Positions 16,088 to 33,138 of a DNA stretch of 49,184 nucleotides are shown piece by piece. Source of the stretch: Acidobacteriota bacterium (GTDB lineage: Bacteria; Acidobacteriota; Terriglobia; Terriglobales; Acidobacteriaceae). The stretch is from assembly GCA_003225465.1 (NCBI GenBank), contig QIAH01000346.1, positions 14,338-63,521 of the forward strand, read 5' to 3'. Below the pieces are notes generated by a model. That model made no database searches. It saw nothing but the letters and a program-made list of their open reading frames with translations, and was not told the DNA's origin. Made by a program: the position numbers and the translations under genes. Numbering within the stretch: the stretch's first letter is position 1; every line of letters begins with the position of its first letter.

Positions 16088-17191
16088 CTAAAGGGCAGCC
16101 ACTTCGCAGAAAACCTTGATCGATCCGTTCGGATTGGTGAGCTTGTTGAATAGCTCGGTGTAGTTCTCTAGTCCGCGAACTGGATCGGTAAGGAGCCGGC
16201 TCAGCCAACCCGGATATTCGGCTTCCGCCTGGGACATATCACGCACGCCCATCTCGAAATATTCACGATTGGCGTTCACTGTGCCGACCATGACTTTGTT
16301 TCCAAGCACAAATTCCAGGTTGATGCGATCGGCTGGAACCTGAACCATGCGATCTCCACCAGTTACGCTGGACAAAACAAGAACACCATTCTTCCCAAGC
16401 GCCTGCATGCTGTCGAAAACGACGCCGGAGTTGCCAGTGGCTTCGAAGATCACATCGAACGGCCCGAATTTCTTCCCACCCTCAATAATCGGTAGTTCCT
16501 GCGTGATCACATAGCGGGCGCCGATCGCTTCGATGAGTTCGGCGTTGAGATTCGGCTTGGAGTTGCGCGCGAACGTAGTGACTTCAATTCCCCGCAGACG
16601 GAGCGCAAGGGTGGCGAGCAGTCCGATGGTGCCAGCTCCCATTACGGCCGCCCGGCGTGGATGCCAAACCTTCAGCCTGCGCTGAATTTCGTAAGCCTGG
16701 TGAATACCTTTTTCAACTACCGTGAATGGTTCGAGCAGCACTCCAACGTGTTTCAGTCCTTGCGGTACCTTCACGATGAATTGGACATCATCGACGTAGT
16801 ATTCCGTCAGATAGCCGTGGCGCAGGTTAATGCCGCGCTCGAAATACGTGTCATCTGTGGTCATGTCGTTCGTGCCGATCAGGTCGTAGATACTGTTGCC
16901 GGGCCGGCGGACAGTAGCTACGACGTAGTCCCCGGGCTTAACCTCGGTGACATTCGGGCCCACAGCTTCCACCTGGCCGAAGCCTTCATGGCCGATAACG
17001 AGAAAGTCGTATCCCGGAGGTGCTGCGCCGTATTCGGCGGCGTTAATTTCCTTGTCGGTGCCATCCACACCGACCCGGAGGACTTTCACTAGGACGCCGC
17101 GTCCGTCCGAGACTTGGTCGAGAGAGGGTTTCGGCAAGTCCGCCACATGGACGCTGTTGGGTTTTCCCGGGAATACACTAATGGCTTTCAT
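16088..17191 (-). CDS. glucose 1-dehydrogenase (MDR superfamily)
   Basis: [63 protein letters not shown]. Confidence 0.83.
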
Positions 17192-17210
17192 CTTGATCTC
17201 TCCTCATTAA

Positions 17211-19913
17211 TTAATCTGCGGCTACTTCAGCGGGCTCCAGTTCCGTGTTCTCTTTTTCACGAAGGCGTTCACGGGATTCTCCGCTCTGCTGCATTAACTT
17301 GGTGACCACCCCAGTCCATCCGGTCTGATGACTCGCGCCTACACCCGCTCCCGAGTCACCGTGGAAGTACTCATGAAAGAGAACGAGGTCCCGCCAGTGT
17401 GGGTCGGTCTGGAACTTTTCCACATTCCCGAACACTGGCCGGCGTCCGCTTTCATCCTGAAGGAATATATTCGTCATGCGCCGCGACAATTCTCCCGCCA
17501 CCTCCCACAGGGTCATCATCTTTCCTGATCCGGTTGGGAACTCAACCGTGAAGTCGTCGCCAAGGTAGTGGTGAAACTTCTGAAGCGACTCAACCAGCAA
17601 GTAGTTCACCGGGAACCAAATCGGGCCGCGCCAATTGGAGTTGCCCCCGAACAACCCAGTCGAAGACTCGCCGGGTTCATAGTCCACACGATGCTCCATC
17701 CCATTCACGTGGAGTTTGTACGGGTTGTCACGATGGAACTGTGACAGCGCCCGGACGCCGTAAGGCGACAGAAACTCACGTTCGTCCAACATGTATTTCA
17801 AAATGCTGCGCAGTTGGTCCCGCCCTGCGATTGAAAGTAGTCGGCGCTCACCCATCCCCTCGGTCCGCATGCATGCAAGATTCTTGGTGAGATCGGGACG
17901 GTTATCGATGAACCATTCCAAACGACGCTTGAAATCGGGCAACTTGTCGAGGACTTCCGGTTCGAGTGTTTCGACAGCGAACAACGGAATCAATCCCACC
18001 ATGGACCGGATCTTCATTGGAAAATGATTGCCGTCGGGAAGTTTCAGAACGTCATAGAAAAACCCGTCTTCCTCATTCCACAAGCCCATGCCGTCGTGGC
18101 CCCGGTGGCTCATCGCGTTGGCAATGTAGATGAAGTGCTCCCAGAACTTGCTGGCCACGTCCTCGTAGCAGGGTTCTTCCTTCGCTAATTCCAGCGCGAT
18201 CGCGAGCAGGTTCAGGGTATACATCGCCATCCAACTGGTCCCGTCCGACTGTTCGAGGTAACCGCCGGTTGGTAGCGGTGCGCTGCGGTCGAATACTCCG
18301 ATATTGTCGAGTCCGAGAAAGCCGCCCTGGAAAATGTTCATCCCTTCGGCGTCCTTGCGGTTCACCCACCAGGTGAAGTTCAACATCAGCTTGTGGAATA
18401 CGCGCTGCAGAAATGCCCGATCGCCTTTTCCCTTGCGCTTCTTGTCAATCTTGTAGACACGCCACGCAGCCCAGGCATGCACTGGAGGATTCACGTCACC
18501 GAACGCCCACTCGTACGCAGGAATCTGCCCGTTGGGATGCATGTACCACTCCCGCAACATGAGCGTCAGTTGTTCCTTCGCGAAGTCCGGGTCGACAAGC
18601 GCCAGCGGGATGCAGTGAAATGCAAGGTCCCACGCGGCATACCAAGGGTATTCCCACTTATCAGGCATCGAGATCACGTCTGCGTTATAAAGATGGGTCC
18701 ATTCGTGGTTGCGGCCCTGCTTGCGTTCCTCGGGCGGCGGAGGATTGCCCGGGTCGCCCTGCAGCCAGTCTTTGATTACGTAGTAGTAGAACTGTTTGGA
18801 CCAGAGCATGCCGGAAAAGCCCTGGCGCATGACGTTCTTTGCGTCGGCAGAAAGGTCCGTGGGAATTACCGTCGCATAGAACTCGTCCGCTTCGCGCTGG
18901 CGCAGAGCGACTGTCTTATCGAAACCGGCAAAAGCGTTCTTGCCCTGGAAATCGGAGTCGGCAAGGCGCAGGCGAACCACCACGGTTTCTCCGGCACCCA
19001 CCGTAAGCTTGTAGTGAGCCGCGGCTTTGGTGCCCTTATGCTCGGGATTCACCGCTTCCCTGGAGCCGTGCACGACGTAGTCGTTGATGCTGTCCTTGAC
19101 GTAGCGAGTACGGTTCTCGACTCCAAACAGCCGCTTAGCGTTGGTCTCATTTTCTGTGAACAGCAACTCTGGAGTGCCTTCACAATGGAGCCAGCGATTA
19201 CCCGGCTGATCATGATTCAGCTCGATCACGGGATTTGTGCTCGAACCTGATTCGTGAAGCTCAGGCCGTCGCTCACGTCCTCCCCACGACCATGTATTCC
19301 GGAACCACACTGTCGGCAGCAGGCGAAGCTTGGCCGGTTCCGGGCCGCGGTTCGCGACCGTGATCTTGATGAGTATGTCTTCCGTGTCGGCCTTGGCATA
19401 TTCCACAAACACATCGAAATAGCGATTGTCGTTGAACACATCGGTGTCCAACAGTTCGTACTCCGACTGATTCTTACCGCGACGCCGGTTCTCTTCCACA
19501 AGTTGGCCGTAAGGAAATTCCGCTTGTGGGTACTTGTAGAGGTACTTCATATACGAGTGTGTGGGAGTCGAGTCGAGGTAGAAGTAGTACTCCTTCACGT
19601 CCTCGCCATGGTTGCCCTCATTCCCCGTCAAACCGAAAATCCGTTCTTTCAGGATGGGATCGCGCTCGTTCCAGAGAGCCACAGCAAAGCAAATGTTCTG
19701 TTTCCTGTCGCTGATTCCCGCCAGTCCGTCTTCGTTCCAGCGATAAGCACGTGAGCGAGCGTGGTCATGGGACAGGTACTCCCAGGCGTTCCCGTAGGCG
19801 CTATAGTCTTCGCGCACCGTGCCCCACGCGCGTTCGCTGAGATAAGGCCCCCAACGTTTCCAATGCTTTCGGCGCGTGCCAGATTCCGATAGTCGAATCT
19901 CTTCGTGCGTCAT
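17211..19913 (-). CDS. MGH1/GH63-like glucosidase
   Basis: ~900 aa; [49 protein letters not shown]; (alpha/alpha)6-type sequence. Confidence 0.85.
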
Positions 19914-20122
19914 CGGATATCTCCGTGTTCCATGCAAATCAGATTTACCAGGCAGGCAAACTCGTCCGGCATCTGCAGATCCCCGCAACGGGGACCGAGT
20001 CCGGTGTCGTTTACCGGATCGTCGATGCCTGAATCACTGCACAGTACCGTGCGCGGCGACGTGTCGCTATCCAGGTTCAAGTCCGTCCTGATTAACTCGG
20101 CTTGGATAACAGTTCCGCTCAC
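19910..20122 (-). CDS. small hypothetical protein, translationally coupled to the glucosidase gene
   Basis: GTG start after AGGAGGAG; 70 aa; stop overlaps the downstream ATG as ATGA. Confidence 0.4.
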
Positions 20123-20130
20123 AACTCCTC

Positions 20131-21174
20131 CTACTTCTCCTCGATTTCGACGACGTGGCCGTCGGGATCTCGCACCAGAAAGGCTTTGCTGAATCCCAGC
20201 TGTTCCGTCTGATTCGCAACCACGCCAGAAGAGACAAAGTTCACGCTGTTGGCGCGCAATTGTTGAGCTACGGATTCGGCGGCGCGGGTCAGCAGAACTG
20301 TCTGCCGATGCACGACGTCGCTGGCACGTTCATCTGATGGGAAAGGACGGCCATCGCGTGGGGCCAAATACTCCAGCAATTCAATTCCTGGTCCGCTTGT
20401 TCCGCGCAACGCGGTGATCCGCAAATGGGCTCCAAACACGTTGTTCAGGTGCTCCTGCTCGGTTCCGTAGTTTTCGCTTTCTCCAGCTACGTTCATTCCG
20501 AGGAGGTCGCGATAGAACTTGACGCTGCTGTCGGTGTCCCATACCACGATTGCAGTATGGTCGATGCCGAGAAAAAGCTTCTCCGTCGGTCGGCGCCACT
20601 TCTGCAAGCCCTTGTCTGGCGGAAACTGTAATACCTCCACCGGATGCTCATCTGGGTCCTTGAAGTAGAAAGCTGAGATCCCAGCCGCATTCTTGTTCCA
20701 GTCAGGAAGCCGTTGCGGTCCCGACGAGGCATGTTCCACCTTATTCTGGCGCAACCAGGTGTAGGCTTTGTCCATATCGCTGACGATGATCGCAATGTGT
20801 TGAAACCAGCGATCGTTGCTGCGTGAATCAATGGGGATCGGTCGACTTTTCGGTGCGAGATACTCGGTGAGCTCTATGAACTCGTCACCGAGCCTCATTC
20901 GTACTACGCGGATTCGCAACCCGAACACGCCTTCGAGATGTTCATAGTTCTCGCCGGCGACTTCGGTGTCCGAAACTTTCTCGAACGTGAGCACCTTGGA
21001 ATAGAAGTCCACGGCGCGGTCCATGTCGGAAACGGTGATTCCGATTGCATCGACGCCATCAACCAGTGCGGGGCGCTGTTGGGCCAACCCCTTGGGCACC
21101 GTGATAACCAACAACAGCGTCCAGAGAACCATCAGGGTCTGGCATTGACGACGAAATGAGACGAGTCGATTCAT
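20131..21174 (-). CDS. exported tandem VOC (glyoxalase-fold) protein
   Basis: Signal peptide then two VOC units (IGITVSDMDRAVDFYSKVL...; IDHTAIVVWDTDSSVKFYRDLLG...). Confidence 0.8.
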   Translation of the reverse strand: MNRLVSFRRQCQTLMVLWTLLLVITVPKGLAQQRPALVDGVDAIGITVSDMDRAVDFYSKVLTFEKVSDTEVAGENYEHLEGVFGLRIRVVRMRLGDEFIELTEYLAPKSRPIPIDSRSNDRWFQHIAIIVSDMDKAYTWLRQNKVEHASSGPQRLPDWNKNAAGISAFYFKDPDEHPVEVLQFPPDKGLQKWRRPTEKLFLGIDHTAIVVWDTDSSVKFYRDLLGMNVAGESENYGTEQEHLNNVFGAHLRITALRGTSGPGIELLEYLAPRDGRPFPSDERASDVVHRQTVLLTRAAESVAQQLRANSVNFVSSGVVANQTEQLGFSKAFLVRDPDGHVVEIEEK

Positions 21175-21180
21175 CGTCTG

Positions 21181-22824
21181 TCACCGAGCCAACGCAAGTT
21201 CCCGGTCCTGCACGCGGTTCTGTTCATATTCCGTTTCAGACACTCCCAGACGCTTCATCAGGTGATCACCTACCCGCAAAGCATTCGCGATGATGGTTAG
21301 CGCCGGATTTACGGCTGCGCTCGATGGAAAAAAGCTCCCATCGACCACATAGAGGTTGTCGAGATCGTGCGCCTTACAGTTGCTGTCCAGTGCAGACGTT
21401 TGGGGATCGTCACCGAAACGAATCGTGCCGTTCTGGTGGGCGACACCAGCGAGCGGAATTCGCTGTCCCACGTAAAAGTTTCTGCCAAAAAGCCCCTCGC
21501 CAAAAAGCCCCTGATGACAGTCGTGGCCGTGGATCGCGCAATTAGTCTGCTTCATGGCTTCCTTCAGCTTCGCCTGCAGCCGCGCATGCGCTTCGAGGTT
21601 GTTTGGCGTGTAGGTCAGAACGATCTTGCCGTCCCGGCCGATGCTGACCCGATTATTGGGATCGGGCAGATCTTCGGACGTAAGCCAGAAGTCCAGCGAG
21701 TGTTTTGCCATTAGTTCCAGAGTGAAATTCGGGGCAATAGCCGGAGCTCCAGCCTTGAGTGTGATTGCGTCCAGCTTCCCGACGAACGAAATGTGCCCCA
21801 TCGGATACTCGAAGTCCTTCGAGCCAAAGTAGAAATCATTGACTCCAAGCGTCTTCTGAAAAATCGTTGGATTGGGGCACTTTGAAATCGCCATCATCAC
21901 TGAATTCGTATGTCCCATGTAATGGCGCCCTACGATGTCGGAGCTGTTGGCCAGCCCGCGAGGATGTTTGTCATTCGCGGAGCGCAATAGCAGCGCGGCG
22001 GAGTTGATGGCACCACACGATACGACAACGATATCCGCGGAGTAAGTTTCCAGGCTCCCGTTGCGCTCTACAACTACGCTCCGCACCTCACGGCCCGTCG
22101 TATCTGTATCCAGTCGCTTCACAAGCGAATTGGTCAGAAGCGTTACGTTTGAATGTTTCACGGCCTCATCGACACATACAACTTGCGCATCGGATTTGGC
22201 GCCTACCAGACAGGCGAATCCATCGCACGTATTGCAGCGTATGCAGCGGCTTTTGTGGGGGTTCTTTTCGTCGAGCATAACCCCCACCGGGACGTGGAAC
22301 GGCTTCAGACCCGAACGGACGAAATCGTCGGACAATTGCTGAATGCGTGGCTCATGGCTAATGGCGGGCCAGGGGTATTGCGAATTGGACGGCGGTTCAG
22401 TCGGGTCTTCTCCGCGGTTGCCGTGGACTTGATAGAGATTCTCCGCTTGAGTGTAGTAGGGCTCGAGATCGTCATAGCTGATCGGCCACGCCGGCGAAAT
22501 TCCTCCGTGGTGACGCAGTTCACCAAAATCTTCTTTGCGCAATCGGAACAGTGCAGCCCCATAAAACTTTGTGTTGCCGCCCACATAGTAGTTGGTGTGC
22601 GGATGCAGTTCCTTGCCGTCCTTGTCGAGCCAGGATTCTTTGGCGTTGTAATGGGCATCCACGTTCACAACTTGCGGATCCCAATTCGCCTTTTCGCGAG
22701 GAACATAGTCTCCACGCTCAAGGATGAGGATCCGTTTGCCTGATGGAGCCAGGTGGTAAGCTAGCGTTCCGCCGCCGGCTCCCGTTCCGATGATGATTAC
22801 GTCGAACTGATTCTCTCGGCTCAT
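21181..22824 (-). CDS. GMC family oxidoreductase
   Basis: DVIIIGTGAGGGTLAYHLAPSGKRILILERG; C-terminal VVDGSFFPSSAAVNPALTIIANALRVGDHL. Confidence 0.9.
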   Translation of the reverse strand: MSRENQFDVIIIGTGAGGGTLAYHLAPSGKRILILERGDYVPREKANWDPQVVNVDAHYNAKESWLDKDGKELHPHTNYYVGGNTKFYGAALFRLRKEDFGELRHHGGISPAWPISYDDLEPYYTQAENLYQVHGNRGEDPTEPPSNSQYPWPAISHEPRIQQLSDDFVRSGLKPFHVPVGVMLDEKNPHKSRCIRCNTCDGFACLVGAKSDAQVVCVDEAVKHSNVTLLTNSLVKRLDTDTTGREVRSVVVERNGSLETYSADIVVVSCGAINSAALLLRSANDKHPRGLANSSDIVGRHYMGHTNSVMMAISKCPNPTIFQKTLGVNDFYFGSKDFEYPMGHISFVGKLDAITLKAGAPAIAPNFTLELMAKHSLDFWLTSEDLPDPNNRVSIGRDGKIVLTYTPNNLEAHARLQAKLKEAMKQTNCAIHGHDCHQGLFGEGLFGRNFYVGQRIPLAGVAHQNGTIRFGDDPQTSALDSNCKAHDLDNLYVVDGSFFPSSAAVNPALTIIANALRVGDHLMKRLGVSETEYEQNRVQDRELALAR

Positions 22825-22850
22825 GACCGTCTCCTTTCGAAGTTCAGGCA

Positions 22851-23717
22851 TCACTGGTTCATCGCGCTCATTGCTGTTGGGGTGCTCAACGGAGCCGTCG
22901 CGAAGTTCACGCCGAAGCGCTTGCACCAGATGGTTACCGCACGATACCTGTTGAGGTCCAGATCTGAAGCGAGCTCGTAGTTCTGGTCGCCAAGGTTGCC
23001 CTTCAGAGTCCCAACTTCAACAAAGCCAGCCTGTTTCACTGTCTCGCTGTCGCTGGCATCTTTGGTCGCGACCAAGTAAACGTGGACGTCGGGCCCGTTT
23101 GAAGTTTCGAAGTCCGTGAATCGGAGAATGCGCTTTCCATCGCCCAGTTGGTAAATCGTGGCCTGCCCAACGCCTTTGTGCGCAACACCGTGAAAATTGC
23201 CGGAAGCGATGGCCTGCGCCATGCTCCCCGCAGCGCTGGTTGAGTTCAGAGGCGCAGTGGCGAAGTTCACGCTAAATCGCTGACACCAGATCGTGACGGC
23301 ACGGTATTTCGCGAGATCAACATCAGCAGGAAGTTCGTAATTCTGATCGCCGATATTGCCCTTCAGCGATCCGATCTCACGGAATCCTGCTTTCTTGACC
23401 ATCTCGCTATCGGTCGCATCGTTTGCCGCAACCAGATAAACGTGCACATCCGGACCGTTCGAGGTTTCAAAGTCGGTGAGCCGGAGGATGCGTTTCCCAT
23501 CTGACAGCTTGTAAATACTCGCAGTTCCTTTTCCGTCGTGTGCGACGCTATGGAACGGCCCGGACGCCAAAATTGTTTCTGCACCAGTAGTATTAGCGGA
23601 GGTGGGCATTGCTTCGTTGATCTTCGCATTGACGAACAGCCGTTCGGGCCTGAATGCAGCCCACAGCGCCACTGCCGCGATGAGGAGTAAGCCGTAGATC
23701 AAATTCTTGCGTTTCAT
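22851..23717 (-). CDS. exported protein with two DM13 domains
   Basis: Two copies of G.FH.VAH.G.G.A.IY.L.DGKRILR.TDFETSNGPDVHVYLVA..DA.DSE..K.AGF...G.LKGN.GDQNYEL...YRAVTIWC. Confidence 0.82.
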   Translation of the reverse strand: MKRKNLIYGLLLIAAVALWAAFRPERLFVNAKINEAMPTSANTTGAETILASGPFHSVAHDGKGTASIYKLSDGKRILRLTDFETSNGPDVHVYLVAANDATDSEMVKKAGFREIGSLKGNIGDQNYELPADVDLAKYRAVTIWCQRFSVNFATAPLNSTSAAGSMAQAIASGNFHGVAHKGVGQATIYQLGDGKRILRFTDFETSNGPDVHVYLVATKDASDSETVKQAGFVEVGTLKGNLGDQNYELASDLDLNRYRAVTIWCKRFGVNFATAPLSTPTAMSAMNQ

Positions 23718-24625
23718 TAGATAGTCTCCTTGAGAGTGATTGGTGTTAACAGAGCTTGGTAGTTACAGCGGAAGATGCATCGCTTGTTGTTGTGATGGTG
23801 CAGCTTCGCGCAAAAGACCGCGTGCTTACCGCGCAACCACAGGTAGACCTGTGCGGCTAGCATCATTCCGAGGGGAGGTGCGGTGAAATAAATCCAAAGT
23901 GAGTTCCAGAGTTGTCCCGGGGCGGCTGACGCGAAGGACCGCGCCGGGCTCATGCTCATACCTGATAGCGGTGACTCGATGGTGATGTAAGTTGCAACCA
24001 GTGCTCCGGCAACAACTCCCGTGAATCGTGCAATGCGCGCAGAGTTGGAAACATTCAGGACCATAGTCATCATCAGAAACGAGATGGCTAATTCCGCCAC
24101 GAATGCGACCGCCGTCCCACGACCACCAGGAACGGTGATCGCATAACGAACGTTTTCATCCGCAACCGCTTTTCCCCATATAACAGCACTCAAAAGCACG
24201 CCCAGAGTTCCGCCCAGGAATTGAGCGACGATGTAGAACCATGCGTCCCAGGGTTCAACCTTTCCCAGACGCAGGAACGTCAACGTCACAGAGGGGTTCA
24301 AGTGCGCACCCGATTGCTTGCCCCATGGCGAATAGATAAGCGCGATTGCAGTCAGACCCATGGCGAGGCCAGTAAATAACCGACGAAGGAAAACGCTGGG
24401 GACCATCTGGCGGAGAATCGAACCCGGATGCTGCAACAGAACGGTGAAGCTGCAGGCCGAAACCATGAACAGGCCCAGACACGCAGCTTCGATCAGATAT
24501 TCAGGCCAGTGACTGCTGGCGGCCGAGATCGCGCTCGCAAACCAGGTTCGGTCTGCGCCGTGCGTCTCGGCCCCGGTTGCCGGTTGCTGGTTAATTCCGC
24601 CTGTAGCTTCCGTTTGCATTCGCAC
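23717..24625 (-). CDS. MIP/aquaporin family channel
   Basis: GAHLNPSVTLTFLRLG and SGMSMSPARSFASA, six hydrophobic segments; TAATG overlap with the DM13 gene. Confidence 0.83.
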   Translation of the reverse strand: MRMQTEATGGINQQPATGAETHGADRTWFASAISAASSHWPEYLIEAACLGLFMVSACSFTVLLQHPGSILRQMVPSVFLRRLFTGLAMGLTAIALIYSPWGKQSGAHLNPSVTLTFLRLGKVEPWDAWFYIVAQFLGGTLGVLLSAVIWGKAVADENVRYAITVPGGRGTAVAFVAELAISFLMMTMVLNVSNSARIARFTGVVAGALVATYITIESPLSGMSMSPARSFASAAPGQLWNSLWIYFTAPPLGMMLAAQVYLWLRGKHAVFCAKLHHHNNKRCIFRCNYQALLTPITLKETI

Positions 24626-24785
24626 ATCGGATTCACCGCTACAGCTTTGGTGACAAATGAGCGGGGAATTTATGAACGCAGAGAGCTAGAAAAGCCCGTG
24701 TCACCTTTTCCGGGAACCCGAATCTGATGGTGTTGAGGAACCACTTGATAAGGGAGCTTAGAAGTGTCCCGGACTGGGGGAGTTT

Positions 24786-25016
24786 GTGGAGATTAGTTGC
24801 CTAGAGGTGATCCGGGAGCTTTCAAACTACGTTGATAAAGATGTGAGGCCTAATTTGCGGGCGCAAATCGCGACACACTTGCCGACTTGCGCACACTGCA
24901 CGGCAATTTATGACGGGCTGCGAAACACGATCACCCTGGTCGCAGATGACAGGACTTTTGAATTACCAGTGGGATTCAGTCAACGGTTGCGAGTAAAGCT
25001 AACCCAATCATCCTGA
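24786..25016 (+). CDS. zf-HC2-type anti-sigma-like zinc finger protein
   Basis: CLEVIRELSNYVDKDVRPNLRAQIATHLPTCAHCTAIYDGLRNTITLV; H-x3-C-x2-C. Confidence 0.68.
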   Translation: MEISCLEVIRELSNYVDKDVRPNLRAQIATHLPTCAHCTAIYDGLRNTITLVADDRTFELPVGFSQRLRVKLTQSS

Positions 25017-25036
25017 GTTGCACAGAGCTGATTCCC

Positions 25037-25726
25037 TCACGCCCCTTGGCCCTGAGATTGTCCCGCCCATGAGCCTCCCCAGCCTGGCGCCATCAGATCG
25101 CGCATCTGCAAACGTGCACGCGAAGTGCGCGTCTTAACGTTCTCTTCTGAAATCCCCAGCATCTTCGCAGTTTCCGCAATGTTCATCTGCTGCACATCTC
25201 GAAGCACAAGGACGGTGCGGTATTTCTCGGGCAATGATTTGAGCGCCTTATTCAACGCTTCTCGCAACTCGCGCTGCTCCAGCGCGTCGGATGGAATCTC
25301 GCGCCAATCTGCAAAGTCGGTGGGAATGTAATCACCATCGTCCGTTTGCTGGCCGCTATCGAGCAACTCGTACAGATGCCGGCGAGCTTTGCGCAGCTTC
25401 ATCTTGGCCTCATTAATCGCGATCTGGATTAACCAGGTACTGAATTTAGATTCCTGCCTGAAGCGTGCGAGATGCTTGTATGCCTTCAGTATGGCCTCTT
25501 GCGCTGCGTCTTCGGCGTCGGCATCGTTGCCGAGGATTGATGCGGCCGCGAGGAACACCCCGCGTTCGTAAGGCCGGATCAATTCATAGAAAAGCTCCGT
25601 CTCTCCGGCAATGACGCGCTGCATCAATTCGCACTCGCGTGCTGTTTTAGCATCGACTGACTGCCCGGGCGCCGGTGCAACAGTAGTTGTGCCGGTGAGA
25701 ACAACGATGGGGCTGGGGCTCGTCAT
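25037..25726 (-). CDS. ECF RNA polymerase sigma factor
   Basis: sigma2 DAEDAAQEAILKAYKHLARFRQESKFSTWLIQIAINEAKMKLRK; sigma4 LPEKYRTVLVLRDVQQMNIAETAKMLGISEENVKTRTSRARLQMRDLM. Confidence 0.88.
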   Translation of the reverse strand: MTSPSPIVVLTGTTTVAPAPGQSVDAKTARECELMQRVIAGETELFYELIRPYERGVFLAAASILGNDADAEDAAQEAILKAYKHLARFRQESKFSTWLIQIAINEAKMKLRKARRHLYELLDSGQQTDDGDYIPTDFADWREIPSDALEQRELREALNKALKSLPEKYRTVLVLRDVQQMNIAETAKMLGISEENVKTRTSRARLQMRDLMAPGWGGSWAGQSQGQGA

Positions 25727-26037
25727 ATGGTTGTCTCCTTCAACTGCTGAGTAAGGAAGGCGGAGCAATTCACGTGTTCGACCTGGCGGGTCGCGAGTTC
25801 TCTCAGCAGTGTGGTTCCTCTCGGATCAACAAACCAGACTTTTGCGAGATCGAGCGTGAGCGTCTTTCTCTCCGACAACGTCTGCTCGCTTTGCTTGCGC
25901 AACTCGTTAACCCACGGACCGACCAGCCAACCTTCCAAGCTCAGCCGAACGCTTCCTTCTGACTCGTCAATGATCGAAATTCTCAGCACTGTTTGTGTTC
26001 CTCTGAACGAGATGAGTAAAGGCAAACGACGTGCCAA
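25723..26037 (-). CDS. STAS-domain-like protein (anti-anti-sigma type)
   Basis: RISIIDESEGSVRLSLEGWLVGPWVNELRK...LTLDLAKVWFVDPRGTTLLRELATRQ; ATGA overlap with the sigma gene. Start uncertain. Confidence 0.6.
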   Translation of the reverse strand: MARRLPLLISFRGTQTVLRISIIDESEGSVRLSLEGWLVGPWVNELRKQSEQTLSERKTLTLDLAKVWFVDPRGTTLLRELATRQVEHVNCSAFLTQQLKETTI

Positions 26038-26117: not shown

Positions 26118-26177
26118 TCCCACGAAATCTCGTGGGGAGGTTAGACCATGGGTTCGTGGCCACGAGATTTCGTGGGA
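26118..26177. promoter_or_regulatory. 18-bp perfect inverted repeat with clustered CCACGA/TCGTGG hexamers
   Basis: TCCCACGAAATCTCGTGG (26118-26135) ... CCACGAGATTTCGTGGGA (26160-26177), with TCGTGGCCACGA palindrome at 26154-26165. Confidence 0.6.
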
Positions 26178-26226: not shown

Positions 26227-26763
26227 CTAAGTTATTGGGCGGACAACTCGACACGGATTGCCTACGGCTAGCTTGTTCGCCGGAATATCTCGTACTACCA
26301 CATTCCCGGCCCCAATCACTGTGTTATCCCCAATGCTCACGCCTGGGCCGACGACGCAACATCCTCCGAGCCAGACGCTGTTCCCGATGGTGACTGGTTT
26401 AGCCCCTTCCAGCCCGCTGCGCCGTGTACTGGAATCAAGCTGATGAAATGCCGTGTAGATATGGACTCCTGGCCCGATCTGAGCATCATCCCCAATTTCG
26501 ATGAAATTGCAGTCCAAGAACACGCACCCGTAATTGACGAACCCGTTGCTGCCGAAGCGGATGTGCCGGCCGTAGTCGCAGCTGAAGGGCGACTTGAGTT
26601 GAGTGCCGCAACCGATGCTACCCAACAAGACTTCCAGCAGCGCTCTCCGAAGCTGGGTGTCTTCATTCGGGATTGTATTCAACCGGCGCAAGTATGTTTG
26701 CGCTTCTGCCAAAGCGGACTGGAGTTGCGGATCAGTTGAAAGATAGAGTTCGCCCGCGAGCAT
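26227..26763 (-). CDS. sugar O-acetyltransferase (maltose acetyltransferase/NodL-like, left-handed beta-helix)
   Basis: NYGCVFLDCNFIEIGDDAQIGPGVHIYTAFHQ...PVTIGNSVWLGGCCVVGPGVSIGDNTVIGAGNVVVRDIPANKLAVGNPCRVVR. Confidence 0.82.
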   Translation of the reverse strand: MLAGELYLSTDPQLQSALAEAQTYLRRLNTIPNEDTQLRRALLEVLLGSIGCGTQLKSPFSCDYGRHIRFGSNGFVNYGCVFLDCNFIEIGDDAQIGPGVHIYTAFHQLDSSTRRSGLEGAKPVTIGNSVWLGGCCVVGPGVSIGDNTVIGAGNVVVRDIPANKLAVGNPCRVVRPIT

Positions 26764-26820: not shown

Positions 26821-29013
26821 TCACACTGGCGCAGCTGCAGACGAACTCGGTTCAGAAACCGGGCGTTCGATGCCCAGCTTCTTCATTCTGCTGCGGAGTG
26901 TGTTGGGGTGGAGGTTGAGAATCTTCGCGGCGCCGCGAGGCCCTTCAATAACACCGCGCGTTTCAAGCAGTACCTGGACGATGTGAGCTCGCTCGACGTT
27001 CTCCAGCGAGTGGGGGGAATCGATCTGAGTAACGGAGGCACTAGTGCTTACGATCTCGTCTTCGCGCTGTTCGCTAGTGGCTGGCAGAAGGTCTTTTCCT
27101 AGTCGCAGCACAGTACCGGGGCATAACACCACCGCACGTTCGATCACATTCTGTAGCTCGCGAATATTACCCGGCCAGGAATACCGCGACAGCAGATCCA
27201 CGGTCTCCTGAGACATGCCTGTGATCTGTTTGCCGAACTGGCGACTGAATCTCTCCACGAAGAATGAGCCCAGCAGCGGAATATCGGCGCGGCGCTCCCG
27301 CAGGGGCGGTAAGGTAATCGGTAGTACGTTCAAGCGGTAAAACAAGTCCGCGCGGAAACGGCCTTCCTGCACAGCTTTCTCCAGATCACGGTTACTCGCA
27401 GCGATGATGCGCACGTTGACCTGGATCGTGCGGCTGCTTCCTAACGGCTCGAATTCATGCTCCTGCAGAACACGCAGCAATTTGACCTGTGTGTCGAGGG
27501 GGAGCTCGCTAACCTCATCAAGAAAAAGGCTGCCCCCATCTGCCAATTCAAAGCGACCGGTCCGACGTTCGAGCGCACCGGTGAATGCACCCTTCATATG
27601 CCCAAAAAGCTCGCTTTCGACCAGTCCGGTTGGGATCGCTCCGCAATTCACTTTCACTAGGGGTCGATGTTTGCGTCTGCTGTGATTATGAATCGCACGG
27701 GCAATTAATTCCTTTCCGCACCCGGTTTCGCCAAGGATCAACACGGTGGAATCAGTTGGGGCAACCGTCTCCACTCTTCGCAGGACATCCAGCAGACCCT
27801 TGCTGTTTCCGACGATCTCCTCGAAATTGTGCTCTTTGCGGATTTCTTCCTGGAGATAGATGTTTTCAGCTTCGAGCTTCTTCTGCAGCACTTGCACTTG
27901 TTGAAGCGCGGCCTGCAAATCTGCCTCGGCCCGCTGTCGCTTCAATTCCGCTGCAGCTCGGGCTGCAAAAATCGTGACCAGGTCGATGGCGTGAGGATCC
28001 CGCTCCATCGGCTTGTCATCGAGGATCGCGATGTGCCCGATCACCCGCCCACCGCTGTCAAGCATCGGAACACCGAGGTAGCTCTCCGCCTGCCAGTCCA
28101 CGAGGCCTGTGTCGAGAGGAAACAGCGCCTGGAGCCCTTCTTCGTAGTGGCACACCTCGCCTTTCAGCACCTTCATGCAGGGCGTATCTGCGATATCGAA
28201 CTCGAAGGTCTCTCCAAATCCGTCACCAGTCCAGACCGCCAAAACCTTGGCGCGCTTCTGATTGTCGCAGTCGCTGATAAATGCGTAGCGAGACCGAAGT
28301 GCTGTCGCCATGTGGCGTACCAGCGTCGGGAAGAACTCCTTCCCAGTAGCCGATGCGGTGCCGACCACAATCGACTTGAATCTCTCCTCTTCGAGGTGCC
28401 GCTCAGTAACGTCGCGCACCAATCCAATGACTCCGGTGATCGTGCCGTCGGCGTCGTGATGAGGAGCGAAGCTGCAAGATTCCCAAACATCCCTCCCGTC
28501 GGCCGAATGTTTGGGCACCAGAATATCCCGGACATGAACTGTCTCTCCACAGAGCGCCCGTTTCAGCATTTCTTCCAGCCCGCTGGTACGCAAACGGGGG
28601 AACACTTCAGCCGCCACTCTGTCCAAGACTTCTTCGGCATTCTTGCCGGTCAGCCGCTCCATGAATGGATTGAAGAGTTGGTAGCGTAGTTCGCGGTCGT
28701 AGAAGATGACCCCTTCGGCTGCGTCCCTGATGATTTCCTGGCTGATCTGAGTAGCGGCCTCTGCGGTTTTCTCTTGCTGTTTGGTTCGAATGCGAGCCAT
28801 GACCTGGCTCACGAGAGGTTCCATGTCACAGCCCGAGAGCGTAAACGATTCGCTGTCTGTAACAAACCGAATCGTCTTGCGGGTAGTGTCCATGATCACC
28901 TGGCAGGTCTTGCATTCGTGTAAGTGCTCCTCCAGGCGCGCCCTCGCTTGCGGATCGGCAGCATCCTCCAGATACTCCCCGAATTCGGTCAGGAATTCAG
29001 CGCAACTAAGCAT
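26821..29013 (-). CDS. sigma54-dependent activator with N-terminal zf-HC2 anti-sigma-like domain, PAS, GAF, AAA+, Fis HTH
   Basis: N-term CAEFLTEFGEYLEDAADPQARARLEEHLHECKTCQVIMDTTRKTIRF; AAA+ GETGCGKELIARAIH, FGHMKGAFTGA, SWPGNIRELQNVIERAV; C-term HTH AAKILNLHPNTLRSRMKKLGI. Confidence 0.9.
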   Translation of the reverse strand: MLSCAEFLTEFGEYLEDAADPQARARLEEHLHECKTCQVIMDTTRKTIRFVTDSESFTLSGCDMEPLVSQVMARIRTKQQEKTAEAATQISQEIIRDAAEGVIFYDRELRYQLFNPFMERLTGKNAEEVLDRVAAEVFPRLRTSGLEEMLKRALCGETVHVRDILVPKHSADGRDVWESCSFAPHHDADGTITGVIGLVRDVTERHLEEERFKSIVVGTASATGKEFFPTLVRHMATALRSRYAFISDCDNQKRAKVLAVWTGDGFGETFEFDIADTPCMKVLKGEVCHYEEGLQALFPLDTGLVDWQAESYLGVPMLDSGGRVIGHIAILDDKPMERDPHAIDLVTIFAARAAAELKRQRAEADLQAALQQVQVLQKKLEAENIYLQEEIRKEHNFEEIVGNSKGLLDVLRRVETVAPTDSTVLILGETGCGKELIARAIHNHSRRKHRPLVKVNCGAIPTGLVESELFGHMKGAFTGALERRTGRFELADGGSLFLDEVSELPLDTQVKLLRVLQEHEFEPLGSSRTIQVNVRIIAASNRDLEKAVQEGRFRADLFYRLNVLPITLPPLRERRADIPLLGSFFVERFSRQFGKQITGMSQETVDLLSRYSWPGNIRELQNVIERAVVLCPGTVLRLGKDLLPATSEQREDEIVSTSASVTQIDSPHSLENVERAHIVQVLLETRGVIEGPRGAAKILNLHPNTLRSRMKKLGIERPVSEPSSSAAAPV

Positions 29014-30721
29014 CTGCTGGGTCCTTCTCGATGCGCATGAAGTGGGGAGCAAGGCTCTCCCGCAACATTAGTCGTCCCCGCAACACGCGCGCTTTCAGCG
29101 CCGGAACACCGAGTTCCAGAGCAGCGGCTGCTTCTTCACTCGAAAGTTGGTTGATGTCTCGCAAAATAAGAGCAATCCGATACTTTTCAGGCAATCGAAG
29201 GATCCCCTCCCGGACTAGCTCGCTTCGCTGGGCTGCGGAAAGCAGTTGCTCCGGATCGTCTGCCCAGCTTTGCACTTGCCGCGGACGAAAATCATCTTCA
29301 TCGTCCGTACTCTCCAGAGTCTCCAATGGTTTGCGTCGCCGGATGATCTCCGTTCCGGTGTTAATGGCGATGCTGAGAAGCCAAGTCGAGAACTTTGATC
29401 TTCCCTTGAACTGGCCTATCTTCTCGTAGGCCTTCAGGAACACATCCTGCGTCGCGTCATGGGCGTCATCCTCGTTCCCTACCATTCCTGCCAGCGTGCT
29501 GAAAACCCGGCGCGAATGACGGCGCACCAGTTCTTCGAATCCATCAACGTCGCCCCCCTGGACTCGTACCACTAGCGGCGCGTCTGGGTCGACCACAGGG
29601 ACCGCATCAACTGTAGGACGGGCTTCGCGGGACGCCGGATACAAATCTTTTGGCGTGAACACCCGGCGCGGCGGAAAATCAGGAACCGCCCCCAGCCCGA
29701 ACTGCAAGGTGTTGAGAAAATTAGTCAATCCGGCCATGACGATGGCTTCTATGATCTGAGGCTCGGTGAAGCCGTGCTGTCGAAGTGTGCCTCTATCGAG
29801 TTGAGCCTGAGGATGGCAGGATGACTGGCTCAGCTTGCGCACCTCGTCGAGCAGGGCTTTATCTTCCGTTGAGATGGGAGCAACCCGATGGTCTTCTACG
29901 ATCTGGTCGCATTCTTCGAGCGGCACACCAAGCGCGTTCAGTATCTGGGTGTGCACCGCGATAAGGTAGGTATTAAGGTTCGCCGCCGAGATCACCAGCA
30001 GGATGTTTTCCTTCTGGATACGACTGAGTAGGTCTTCCGCGAACAAGATGCGCTCGAGAGCCAGAACCTCGGCCTCGACCAGATCTGGTCTGACTGACTG
30101 GGCGCGAAAGAGATTCGGAATAAAGCCGATCTGCTCTCGAAGGCAGATGAAAGGCTGGCAATCAACAGCGTCTTGCGGAGGGGTACGGAGATAGGGTCCC
30201 GGCGTCTGAACCCAGTCTTCTGGAAGTTCCGGAAGCGCGTAGATTTCGTTGATGCGGGGCTGAACCACTTCAGAATCGAGTTTTGGCTGTAGGCCTTCTG
30301 CAAGGGTACAAAGCATTTGGCTGAGCGCCGTTGTGGCGATGGTCTCCAGAATTGCTGCATCGTCGAACCCAAATTTCGCCAGGCCTTCGACATCTTTCCC
30401 CGAAAAGCACGGTCCTTTGTGGGCCAGTTTCAAGGAAAATGCGAGAAGAGCATCGTCTTGGCGATCAGGCGTCGGGAAGGTTTGCGCGTAGAGAGCCTGA
30501 CAGTACTCGTTGTGCGAAGTCCTGGCCAGGGCCTTGAGGAGCGTCTGCTTCTGGTTCGAGGTTAGCTTGCCTCGGCTACCTTGGATTGCTCCCAGCAATT
30601 GTGCCTCTGCATGGATCGCACCGGGCACAGTGCTCAGAGCGCGAAACAGATTTGGAACGAAACCGTAGGCCGCAACCAGGACAGCTTCGATCTCATTCGG
30701 CGTTATGGGCAAGGTGCTCAT
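29006..30721 (-). CDS. two AhpD/carboxymuconolactone decarboxylase-like domains fused to a C-terminal ECF sigma factor
   Basis: Domain 2 FICLREQIGFIPNLFRAQSVRPDLVEAEV...AVPDF aligns with the neighbouring AhpD-like protein; C-term DAHDATQDVFLKAYEKIGQFKGRSKFSTWLLSIAINTGTEIIRRR and LPEKYRIALILRDINQLSSEEAAAALELGVPALKARVLRGRLMLRE. Confidence 0.87.
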   Translation of the reverse strand: MSTLPITPNEIEAVLVAAYGFVPNLFRALSTVPGAIHAEAQLLGAIQGSRGKLTSNQKQTLLKALARTSHNEYCQALYAQTFPTPDRQDDALLAFSLKLAHKGPCFSGKDVEGLAKFGFDDAAILETIATTALSQMLCTLAEGLQPKLDSEVVQPRINEIYALPELPEDWVQTPGPYLRTPPQDAVDCQPFICLREQIGFIPNLFRAQSVRPDLVEAEVLALERILFAEDLLSRIQKENILLVISAANLNTYLIAVHTQILNALGVPLEECDQIVEDHRVAPISTEDKALLDEVRKLSQSSCHPQAQLDRGTLRQHGFTEPQIIEAIVMAGLTNFLNTLQFGLGAVPDFPPRRVFTPKDLYPASREARPTVDAVPVVDPDAPLVVRVQGGDVDGFEELVRRHSRRVFSTLAGMVGNEDDAHDATQDVFLKAYEKIGQFKGRSKFSTWLLSIAINTGTEIIRRRKPLETLESTDDEDDFRPRQVQSWADDPEQLLSAAQRSELVREGILRLPEKYRIALILRDINQLSSEEAAAALELGVPALKARVLRGRLMLRESLAPHFMRIEKDPADA

Positions 30722-30834: not shown

Positions 30835-30869
30835 TTCGCCACTCTGTGAGTTCGCTTGGGGAGAAACAT

Positions 30870-31478
30870 ATGAGCTACCTGCGGAACCCTCCGTTTGACG
30901 AAAAGGATTTTCCCTCATTCGCCACGATGCGGGAGCAACTCGGATTCTTGCCGAATTTTTACGTGGCCCAAACCACGCGGCCCGACTTGATTGAGGCCGA
31001 GGTTGCGCTCATGGGCGCCATCTTGTTGAAAGATGGAGCCCTCTCAAGAAAGCAAAAGGAATACGTCTTCCTGGTTACGTCAGCGGCCAACCTGAGCACC
31101 TATTGTGTAACAGCGCACTGCGAAATCGTTCGCATGCTCAAGCTGGAAGGACCTGAGCCCGAGCAAATCGCCATCGATCACGTTCACGCCAAGATTCCGA
31201 TCGCCGACAAGGCACTGCTGAACTTCTGCGCCAAGTTCAACAAACAACCTTCCAAAATTGCCTCCAACGATATCGAGACCTTGCGTACCTATGGCTTCAC
31301 CGAGCAGCAAATAATGGAAGCAATTGTGATCGTCGGCTTTTCCCAGTTTGCCAACACCGTCGCATTTGGACTGGGAACCGTCCCGGACTTCCACAACGCG
31401 AAGATTAATGCCGCCCTCGGCCAGGGTGAGGGAGCGGCTCAGACGACGCAAGAAGCGCCCGCTACCTCTCGCGCTTGA
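30870..31478 (+). CDS. AhpD-like / peroxidase-related (CMD family) protein
   Basis: SAANLSTYCVTAHCEIVRML (CxxxHC) and QLGFLPNFYVAQTTRPDLIEAEV; ATG 30870 after GGGGAG. Confidence 0.84.
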   Translation: MSYLRNPPFDEKDFPSFATMREQLGFLPNFYVAQTTRPDLIEAEVALMGAILLKDGALSRKQKEYVFLVTSAANLSTYCVTAHCEIVRMLKLEGPEPEQIAIDHVHAKIPIADKALLNFCAKFNKQPSKIASNDIETLRTYGFTEQQIMEAIVIVGFSQFANTVAFGLGTVPDFHNAKINAALGQGEGAAQTTQEAPATSRA

Positions 31479-31494: not shown

Positions 31495-33138
31495 TCAGGG
31501 ACGGATCCCGGGAATGTTCAGCCGGATTCGATACAGTCCTGTCTTCGCGCAGAGATAAAGTGTCTTCCCGTCATCGTCGCCCCAAGCGAAGTTGTGGGGG
31601 TGCTCGGGGCCAACGATCGTGCCAAGGTGTTTACCCTCCGGCGAGATAATCCACAATCCGCTGGGACCCGACACGTAAAGATTCCCCTTCTGATCGATTT
31701 TCATCCCATCGAGCGCATCTTTGCCTTCGGCCGATGTCATGTCGAAGAAAACTTTCCCGTTCGACAATGTTCCATCAGGATTCACTTCGTACCGCATGAT
31801 GATCTTCTTCTTCTCGTCCCAGTTGTCCACATAGAAATACTTTTCATCGGGTGAGAAGGCGAGGCCATTGGGGCCGCTCAGTTCGTTCGTCAGAAGTTGG
31901 ACGATCTTGCTGTCTGGAGACACGCGGAACACGCCGCTGTACGGCAACTCCTTGCGTGGATCGTCGAAGAACTTTGGGAGTCCGAATGGCGGATCGGTGA
32001 AATACAGCGCTCCATCCGATTTGTAAACCAGATCGTTAGGGCTGTTGAGCCGCTTGCCTTCATAGCGATCAGCCAGCACGGTAAGCTGACCATTCTTCTC
32101 CATGCGAACCACACGCCGATTGCCATGCTGGTTGATGGTGAGCCGGCCTTGCTTATCAAGCGTGAGCCCGTTGGAGCCAGGCTGGCCATACTCGCCAATG
32201 TCCACGCCGCGGTAGCCGGACTTCGTCATGAAGATCGAAAGCTGACCATCTTGTGTCCAGCGGTAGATAAGGTTGTTGTTGGGATCGCTGAATAGGAGGT
32301 AGCCGTCTGTGTCTTCAGTCCGCGGAACCCAAATGGGACCTTCGGTAAAAAGGAACCCTCCTGCCAGTTTCTCGATCTTCGCGTCCCTAGGAACAATCTC
32401 GTCCAGCGCTGGGTCTTTGCGTATCACTTGAGCCGGCGTGTCGTCGATGGCAACCTTGGGTGATTTATAGAAGTCGAGGGTGGCCGATTTGATCCAGATG
32501 AAATTCTGTGGGCTATAGGAGATCGGCCCGTTGATGCCGAAGACAGCGAGCTGAATCCGCTCGCCGGGCTTAACATGCCTCGCGATAATCAGACGGTTGG
32601 GAGCGTTGAATCCCTTGATGACAGGGCCGCCAGGTTGGCCGAGTACACGCGGCATCTTCCCGTCTACCCAGACTTCAGCGTAATCGTCGATCACAATTTC
32701 CAAGGCGACTGTAGAACCCGCGGTTTCAAGGTTGGCAATCCTCTCAGGGATGGTGATGTTGATGCGATACCAGTTGAAACACACCTTGGCCGTGGATCTC
32801 CGTTGGTCAAGGGTGGTGGCATCGATAGCTTCCCATTGCGAATCGTCGAAGTCCGCTGCGCCCGCGTGAGGAGCGTAATCATAGGTCTTGCTCGGTGCCC
32901 CGCTCGGCTTCAGGTCAGGTCCTACCGTGCGGGAGTCGGCATCAACGATCCTCACGTCGTGATACCGCCATTGGCCGTTCACCACTTGCACGCCTTCGCG
33001 TGAAGCCAAATCAACGACTGCGTCGGGGCGGCCGAAAGGAGGGTCCTGGATTGACTGTCCCTCAGCATTCAGAAATGCGAGTGACAAGATCAATGTCAGG
33101 AGTATTGAGAAACACAAAGTTCGCTGTCGGTTGTTCAT
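31495..33138 (-). CDS. exported SMP-30/gluconolactonase-like protein
   Basis: Signal peptide; EGPIWVPRTEDTDGYLLFSDPNNNLIYRW, GSNGLTLDKQGRLTINQHGNRRVVRME, LNSPNDLVYKSDGALYFTDPPFGL, GPNGLAFSPDEKYFYV. Confidence 0.86.
   Translation of the reverse strand: MNNRQRTLCFSILLTLILSLAFLNAEGQSIQDPPFGRPDAVVDLASREGVQVVNGQWRYHDVRIVDADSRTVGPDLKPSGAPSKTYDYAPHAGAADFDDSQWEAIDATTLDQRRSTAKVCFNWYRINITIPERIANLETAGSTVALEIVIDDYAEVWVDGKMPRVLGQPGGPVIKGFNAPNRLIIARHVKPGERIQLAVFGINGPISYSPQNFIWIKSATLDFYKSPKVAIDDTPAQVIRKDPALDEIVPRDAKIEKLAGGFLFTEGPIWVPRTEDTDGYLLFSDPNNNLIYRWTQDGQLSIFMTKSGYRGVDIGEYGQPGSNGLTLDKQGRLTINQHGNRRVVRMEKNGQLTVLADRYEGKRLNSPNDLVYKSDGALYFTDPPFGLPKFFDDPRKELPYSGVFRVSPDSKIVQLLTNELSGPNGLAFSPDEKYFYVDNWDEKKKIIMRYEVNPDGTLSNGKVFFDMTSAEGKDALDGMKIDQKGNLYVSGPSGLWIISPEGKHLGTIVGPEHPHNFAWGDDDGKTLYLCAKTGLYRIRLNIPGIRP

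Follow-up and report, generated by a model that had tools for sequence, protein, structure and literature searches.

Sigma54-to-ECF cascades, in which one sigma factor decides the synthesis of another, are known mainly from HrpL. In the HrpRS-sigma54-HrpL system of Pseudomonas syringae (ECF32), bEBPs at UAS activate the sigma54 promoter from which the ECF sigma factor is made (PMC5263251; PMC8999054), and there is no evidence of an anti-sigma factor for HrpL (PMC5263251). Tandem enhancers are documented for NorR, which has three enhancer sites (PMC2941729). Here we describe a locus that would represent a second, metabolic kind of sigma54-to-ECF cascade, found in Acidobacteriota. It lies in a stretch of 49,184 nucleotides, called the window below, of a soil bacterium's draft genome of 590 contigs and 6.15 Mb. 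A first-pass annotation of this DNA had recognized a second sigma module whose anti-sigma gene has an unusual placement; our analysis supports that view. The three genes on which it was based, encoding an ECF sigma factor, a STAS-like protein and a zf-HC2 protein, are all real (Table 1), as are the ATGA overlap of the first two genes at 25723-25726 and the 20-nt gap between the stop of the convergent zf gene (25016) and that of the sigma gene (25037). The annotation had overlooked three elements: a sigma54 promoter, its enhancer palindromes and a putative promoter for the ECF.

The STAS-like gene had been thought to start at a TTG at 26037. That assignment was wrong, as this TTG marks the first base of the sigma54 -24 element. 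The start common to all aligned orthologues is a GTG at 25989, with a GGAGGAA-like site ahead of it in most of them, so the protein has 88 amino acids. The ATGA coupling to the ECF gene was kept in all 6 orthologues inspected. The promoter has the -24 GG and -12 GC at 10-bp spacing, in the context TTGGCACG-N4-TTGC, and RpoN is encoded in the genome (PF04552, E 1.6e-60). Sites were scored with a scheme drawn from the textbook consensus, the specificity of which was checked solely by shuffling and a reverse-complement control. An Rfam scan of the window found no RNA family, and we saw no convincing sigma70 promoter or terminator that would account for the region.

Table 1. Features of the locus, with positions counted from the first base of the window.
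Feature	Position	Strand	Basis or remark
Glucose dehydrogenase-like	16088-17191	-	Pfam, synteny
MGH1-like hydrolase	17211-19988	-	Pfam, synteny
Glyoxalase-like	20131-21174	-	Pfam, synteny
GMC oxidoreductase	21181-22926	-	Pfam, synteny
DM13	22851-23717	-	Pfam, synteny
Remainder of conserved output cluster, DM13 to glucose dehydrogenase-like	16088-23717	-	
MIP aquaporin, first gene of putative ECF output operon	23717-24625	-	PF00230; kept in L054, L127, L128, L129
Putative ECF promoter TGTCACC-N14-GAATCCGAT, upstream of MIP operon	24626-24655	-	Locus-restricted motif
Putative ECF promoter TGTCACC-N14-GAATCTGAT, upstream of zf gene	24699-24728	+	Locus-restricted motif
zf-HC2 (ZAS) protein, stand-alone, 76 aa; probable cognate anti-sigma of ECF	24786-25016	+	C-x25-H-x3-C-x2-C; PF13490; RsiW 5wuq; tree
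ECF sigma factor, 229 aa	25037-25726	-	Sigma70_r2, Sigma70_r4_2; ATGA-coupled to STAS gene; orthologues 55-76% identical
STAS-like protein, 88 aa, GTG start	25723-25989	-	GTG conserved; AF2/Foldseek: SpoIIAA, RsbV
RBS of STAS gene, AGAGGAA	25998-26004	-	Sequence; GGAGGAA-like in orthologues
Sigma54 -24/-12 promoter TTGGCACGTCGTTTGCC	26021-26037	-	0 mismatches; TGG..TGC invariant in 8 orthologous loci
UAS-like palindrome 2, CCACGAGATTTCGTGG on -	26120-26135	.	Exact palindrome; 40 bp from palindrome 1
Half-site CCACGAA between palindromes	26153-26159	-	Alignment; near-invariant in 8 loci
UAS-like palindrome 1, CCACGAAATCTCGTGG on -	26160-26175	.	Exact palindrome; putative bEBP enhancer site
bEBP: zf-HC2 + PAS + GAF + sigma54 AAA+ + HTH_8	26821-29052	-	Pfam domains; GAFTGA, Walker A; predicted activator of sigma54 promoter
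CMD-CMD-ECF fusion; probable partner of bEBP zf domain	29006-30721	-	Domains; stand-alone zf next downstream in L056, L057, L127, L129

The two 16-bp palindromes ahead of the promoter are the sole exact copies of their pattern in the 6.15-Mb genome, and no other such site in it combines a strong sigma54 match with an exact twin close by. None of the other near-matches in the genome (2 mismatches) has a close twin, and a sigma54 site within 300 nt accompanies one of them only, a weak case (L011). Eight loci, namely the window, L054, L056, L158, L125, L159, L160 and L161, keep the order palindrome, half-site, palindrome, TGGCAC-N5-TTGC and GTG, with the palindromes spaced 39 to 40 bp apart. These orthologous loci come from a single family and are not independent of each other. 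All eight share the block UAS-UAS-sigma54-GTG-STAS-ATGA-ECF behind a bEBP gene, which lies immediately upstream in all but the window; there, a hexapeptide acetyltransferase gene (26227-26763, minus strand) stands between the bEBP gene and the enhancer sites, an arrangement seen at none of the orthologous loci. At the ECF loci that have no bEBP (L127, L128, L129 and L131 to L133), neither the palindromes nor a sigma54 promoter were found ahead of the ECF gene. From this promoter anatomy, we infer that the STAS and ECF genes are transcribed from the sigma54 promoter upon activation by the bEBP. The half-site between the palindromes suggests a three-site enhancer with a phasing of about 20 bp, and in L054 it is extended to TCACGA-N6-TCGTGA. 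An apparent STAS-ECF fusion in L160 (1-1188), where the two proteins are read in one frame, was discounted; at the end of the contig, the C-terminal part of the ECF is read from the other strand, probably as the result of an assembly break.

The ECF protein contains sigma regions 2 and 4 only, as do group IV sigma70 factors (Sigma70_r2, 62.7 bits; Sigma70_r4_2, 58.4 bits; TIGR02937, 109 bits against a cut-off of 42.9). Its putative targets are marked by two back-to-back copies of TGTCACC-N14-GAATC(C/T)GAT in the stretch that separates the zf gene from the divergent aquaporin gene, the only copies in the window under the strict pattern. The genome holds just these 2 sites, and since a search of 20 genomes found 6 exact matches, every one of them at this locus, the motif is probably the ECF's own promoter. 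The pair recurs, exact or slightly degenerate, between the zf and MIP genes in L054/L124, L127, L128 and L129, and the zf-side copy is present in L131. The gene order MIP-DM13-GMC-glyoxalase-MGH1 is conserved together with the motif pair, the glucose dehydrogenase gene being visible in L054. The true start of the aquaporin is probably at or after 24619. We infer that the ECF drives both the zf anti-sigma gene and this metabolic cluster. Conserved genes flank the regulators on both sides (16088-24625 and 31495-33138, both minus strand), SMP-30 among them, and suggest sugar or polyol oxidation.

The two zinc fingers, one in the stand-alone gene and one at the N terminus of the bEBP, are both zf-HC2 domains, scoring just over the Pfam cut-off of 22.2 bits, at 22.6 and 23.7 bits, respectively. 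They share the metal-ligand motif C-x25-H-x3-C-x2-C, which has the RsrA spacing. The stand-alone protein, with its Hx3Cx2C, upstream Cys ligand, adjacent ECF and PF13490 score (22.6 versus 22.2 bits), has the attributes of a ZAS/ASDI protein. Its score against the RsrA equivalog model TIGR03988 is 33.7 bits, under the cut-off of 62.5, and its closest solved anti-sigma relative is RsiW (5wuq; E 4e-4). A fold search of the PDB with a model of the protein, built from a 2-sequence alignment (pLDDT 74.5), found nothing. As for the placement of the gene, the remark that ECF anti-sigmas are usually co-directional with their sigma holds for this family, with a downstream co-directional zf gene at 21 orthologous loci and a convergent one at 6.

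A tree of 45 zf domains placed the two zinc fingers far apart, with a long branch between their clades; the alignment has few columns, yet both forks are firm. The stand-alone zf shared its clade (99/97) with zf genes of L124, L127, L129 and L128 that are likewise convergent and belong to the same ECF, and it is probably the cognate ZAS anti-sigma of that factor. The bEBP zf grouped with stand-alone zf genes directly downstream of a CMD-ECF gene in L056, L057, L127 and L129 (100/100), so it looks like the anti-sigma of the CMD-ECF, fused to the bEBP in this genome. Cross-talk between the two modules through their zinc fingers, as the first-pass annotation had envisaged, is unsupported at the level of sequence because the two fingers form separate clades that match separate sigmas. 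In L056 and L057, the counterpart of the bEBP's N-terminal zf-HC2 domain is a separate in-frame upstream gene, and the fusion, through what looks like a deletion of the DNA between the two, was found in this genome alone. In the fused CMD-ECF gene, two carboxymuconolactone-decarboxylase/peroxidase-like domains precede the ECF sigma, and their CxxC motifs are degenerate (NTYL and NEYC). A stand-alone CMD gene (30846-31478, plus strand) with STYC is divergent from it, a pairing kept in L056, L057, L127 and L129.

The STAS-like protein scored below the Pfam cut-off for STAS_2 (20.6 versus 29.2 bits). A fold comparison was needed because phmmer against PDB sequences gave chance-like hits only. The label nevertheless proved apt: an AF2 model (pLDDT 75), built from the window protein and two orthologues, found its best matches in SpoIIAA and RsbV (Foldseek E 2e-4 to 9e-4). 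The conserved residues are G20, E29, D55 and G58. It had also been pointed out that VDPRGT takes the place of the DSxG in which phosphorylatable anti-anti-sigmas typically have their Ser. This stands for the window copy, which has no phosphorylatable Ser or Thr there, but not for the family, in which the residue aligned with the SpoIIAA Ser is Pro in the window, Ala in L054, Val in L161, Leu in L160 and Ser in L125, L158 and L159. Such variation makes a conserved phospho-switch unlikely, although those relatives that keep the candidate Ser could be phosphorylated. No HATPase (SpoIIAB/RsbW) anti-sigma partner was found among the 14 neighboring proteins scanned.

In a search with the ECF that found 30 orthologous loci, STAS was present at the 3 with a full bEBP, and both were missing from the remaining 27. 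A search with STAS in 60 genomes of the family returned 30 loci, 22 with a bEBP upstream, and a phylum-wide set gave 14 of 26; for a random gene, we estimate from the roughly 34 bEBPs in 6.15 Mb that about 0.4% would be expected to lie behind a bEBP. For 33 of the 52 distinct loci, the best sigma54-like site lies 38 to 68 nt before the STAS start, against 6.6 expected and 7 in the reverse-complement control (P ~1e-17). A second set, drawn from beyond the family on which the profile had been built, gave 18 of 26 (3.3 expected; control, 3; P ~4e-11). Both P values treat the loci as independent and ignore their relatedness. Read by eye, the genes downstream of STAS vary, encoding an ECF, a response-regulator-like protein, an FNR-like protein or something else. 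The order bEBP-STAS-ECF also occurs in other families (L244, L245, L247 and L255), and many STAS relatives lie behind a bEBP without any ECF. Given the bEBP adjacency, the position of the sigma54 site and the varied cargo, STAS seems to track sigma54 and its bEBP and not the ECF, which would be one of several second-tier regulators encoded alongside it. The idea that STAS is the ECF's private regulator is not supported, as the 27 bEBP-less ECF loci are without STAS and most relatives of STAS are found behind bEBPs, in many cases lacking an ECF.

Several other readings of the locus deserve consideration. The STAS protein might be an anti-anti-sigma that acts on the zf/ECF pair independently of phosphorylation, through translational coupling, with both zinc fingers cross-talking with both sigmas. 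The ATGA overlap, the SpoIIAA/RsbV-like predicted fold, the missing Ser in the window copy and the common ligand spacing of the zf domains are all in line with such a role. We nonetheless judge it very unlikely, since ECF-plus-zf loci without a bEBP do without STAS, STAS also follows bEBPs not accompanied by an ECF, the zf domains fall into separate clades that each match their own sigma, and the closest solved relative, RsiW, is an anti-sigma of the ASDI kind. Anti-sigmas of that kind are not known to depend on STAS partners, whereas STAS antagonists are known from the GHKL type.

A less far-fetched but still unlikely reading is that sigma54 operons generally carry STAS as a leader protein, which serves housekeeping or translation (an efficient start, coupling) and makes no signaling contact with the bEBP or the ECF. 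It would explain why STAS is usually the first gene past the sigma54 site and why the cargo that follows is so varied, but G20, E29, D55 and G58, along with the STAS fold, imply a folded and selected protein, and a leader role would not by itself readily account for the adjacency to bEBPs. The palindromes themselves could belong to another regulator, a repressor or a one-component activator, with a distant bEBP driving the sigma54 promoter. In its favor, the genome encodes about 34 bEBPs, and binding of the palindromes by the bEBP of this locus is a prediction. It is very improbable in our estimation, as the palindromes accompany an upstream orthologue of this bEBP and are lacking at loci without it. 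Moreover, bEBPs of the HTH_8 type are known to bind dyad sites upstream of -24.

We consider it likely that the locus encodes a sigma cascade of two tiers that carries its own brake, running from the bEBP through sigma54 to STAS and ECF, and from there to the anti-sigma and the metabolic operon. In this model, the bEBP would bind the palindrome pair and the middle half-site and activate sigma54 RNA polymerase at the promoter, giving a single STAS-ECF mRNA on which translation of the ECF would be coupled to that of STAS by the ATGA overlap. The ECF would then recognize TGTCAC-N14-GAATCYGAT at the two back-to-back promoters and switch on the convergent zf gene and the divergent MIP-DM13-GMC-glyoxalase-MGH1-glucose dehydrogenase cluster. 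Judged by homology and phylogeny, the zf protein would be the ZAS anti-sigma cognate to the ECF, and as its gene would be under the control of the ECF itself, it would close a negative feedback loop, adding control of a metal or redox type to a sigma factor whose synthesis sigma54 decides. These last two steps do not generalize fully: L056 and L057/L125 have the sigma54-STAS-ECF block with neither a convergent zf gene nor the ECF motif nearby. The weakest step concerns STAS, which may be a partner that the bEBP has in its own product operon; its most likely role would be to modulate the bEBP in feedback, by binding the sensory or AAA+ region, rather than to act as an anti-anti-sigma of the ECF. 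Extended to the whole of this small STAS family, which is widespread in Acidobacteriota, the proposal that it is a dedicated sigma54/bEBP component, first in the bEBP-activated operon and feeding back on the bEBP, is a tentative one to which we would give somewhat less than even chances.

The association of STAS with sigma54 activators is recurrent and apparently undescribed. We found no description of it in the open-access literature searched, so its novelty is provisional. If STAS does feed back on the bEBP, the fold would serve sigma54 control as well as the partner switching of the sigma70 family. The orthologous loci with and without a bEBP suggest how an ECF sigma can shift between classical anti-sigma control and sigma54 control. 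Since the locus offers a recognizable enhancer as well as a putative promoter for the ECF and a probable anti-sigma for feedback, every step of the cascade is testable.

Parts of the locus resemble several described systems. Like NorR, it appears to have several tandem putative enhancer sites that would nucleate a GAF-AAA+-HTH activator, a likeness of array layout, but the bEBP here differs in its sensory domains, which are zf-HC2, PAS and GAF. The window STAS shares with SpoIIAA and RsbV its predicted fold and the D-x-x-G at the phospho-site loop; unlike them, it has no Ser there, no HATPase anti-sigma kinase among the scanned neighbors and a link to sigma54 bEBPs. The stand-alone zf is akin to the RsrA/RsiW-type ZAS (ASDI) proteins in its ligand motif, its similarity to RsiW, its score against the RsrA model and its ECF neighbor. 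It differs from them in falling below the RsrA cut-off, in its 76-aa length with no evident membrane segment, and in being encoded convergently with the sigma gene, outside the sigma's operon and probably under the ECF's own promoter. HrpRS-sigma54-HrpL is the nearest working analogue. There too, an ECF gene stands under the control of sigma54 and bEBPs, an arrangement that our locus shows at the level of sequence; we do not propose homology to HrpL. HrpL has, to our knowledge, no STAS gene, whereas here a STAS gene leads the operon. A probable anti-sigma gene is adjacent as well, in contrast to HrpL, although it is absent nearby in L056 and L057. The output of the cascade would be metabolic, in place of the type III secretion governed by HrpL.
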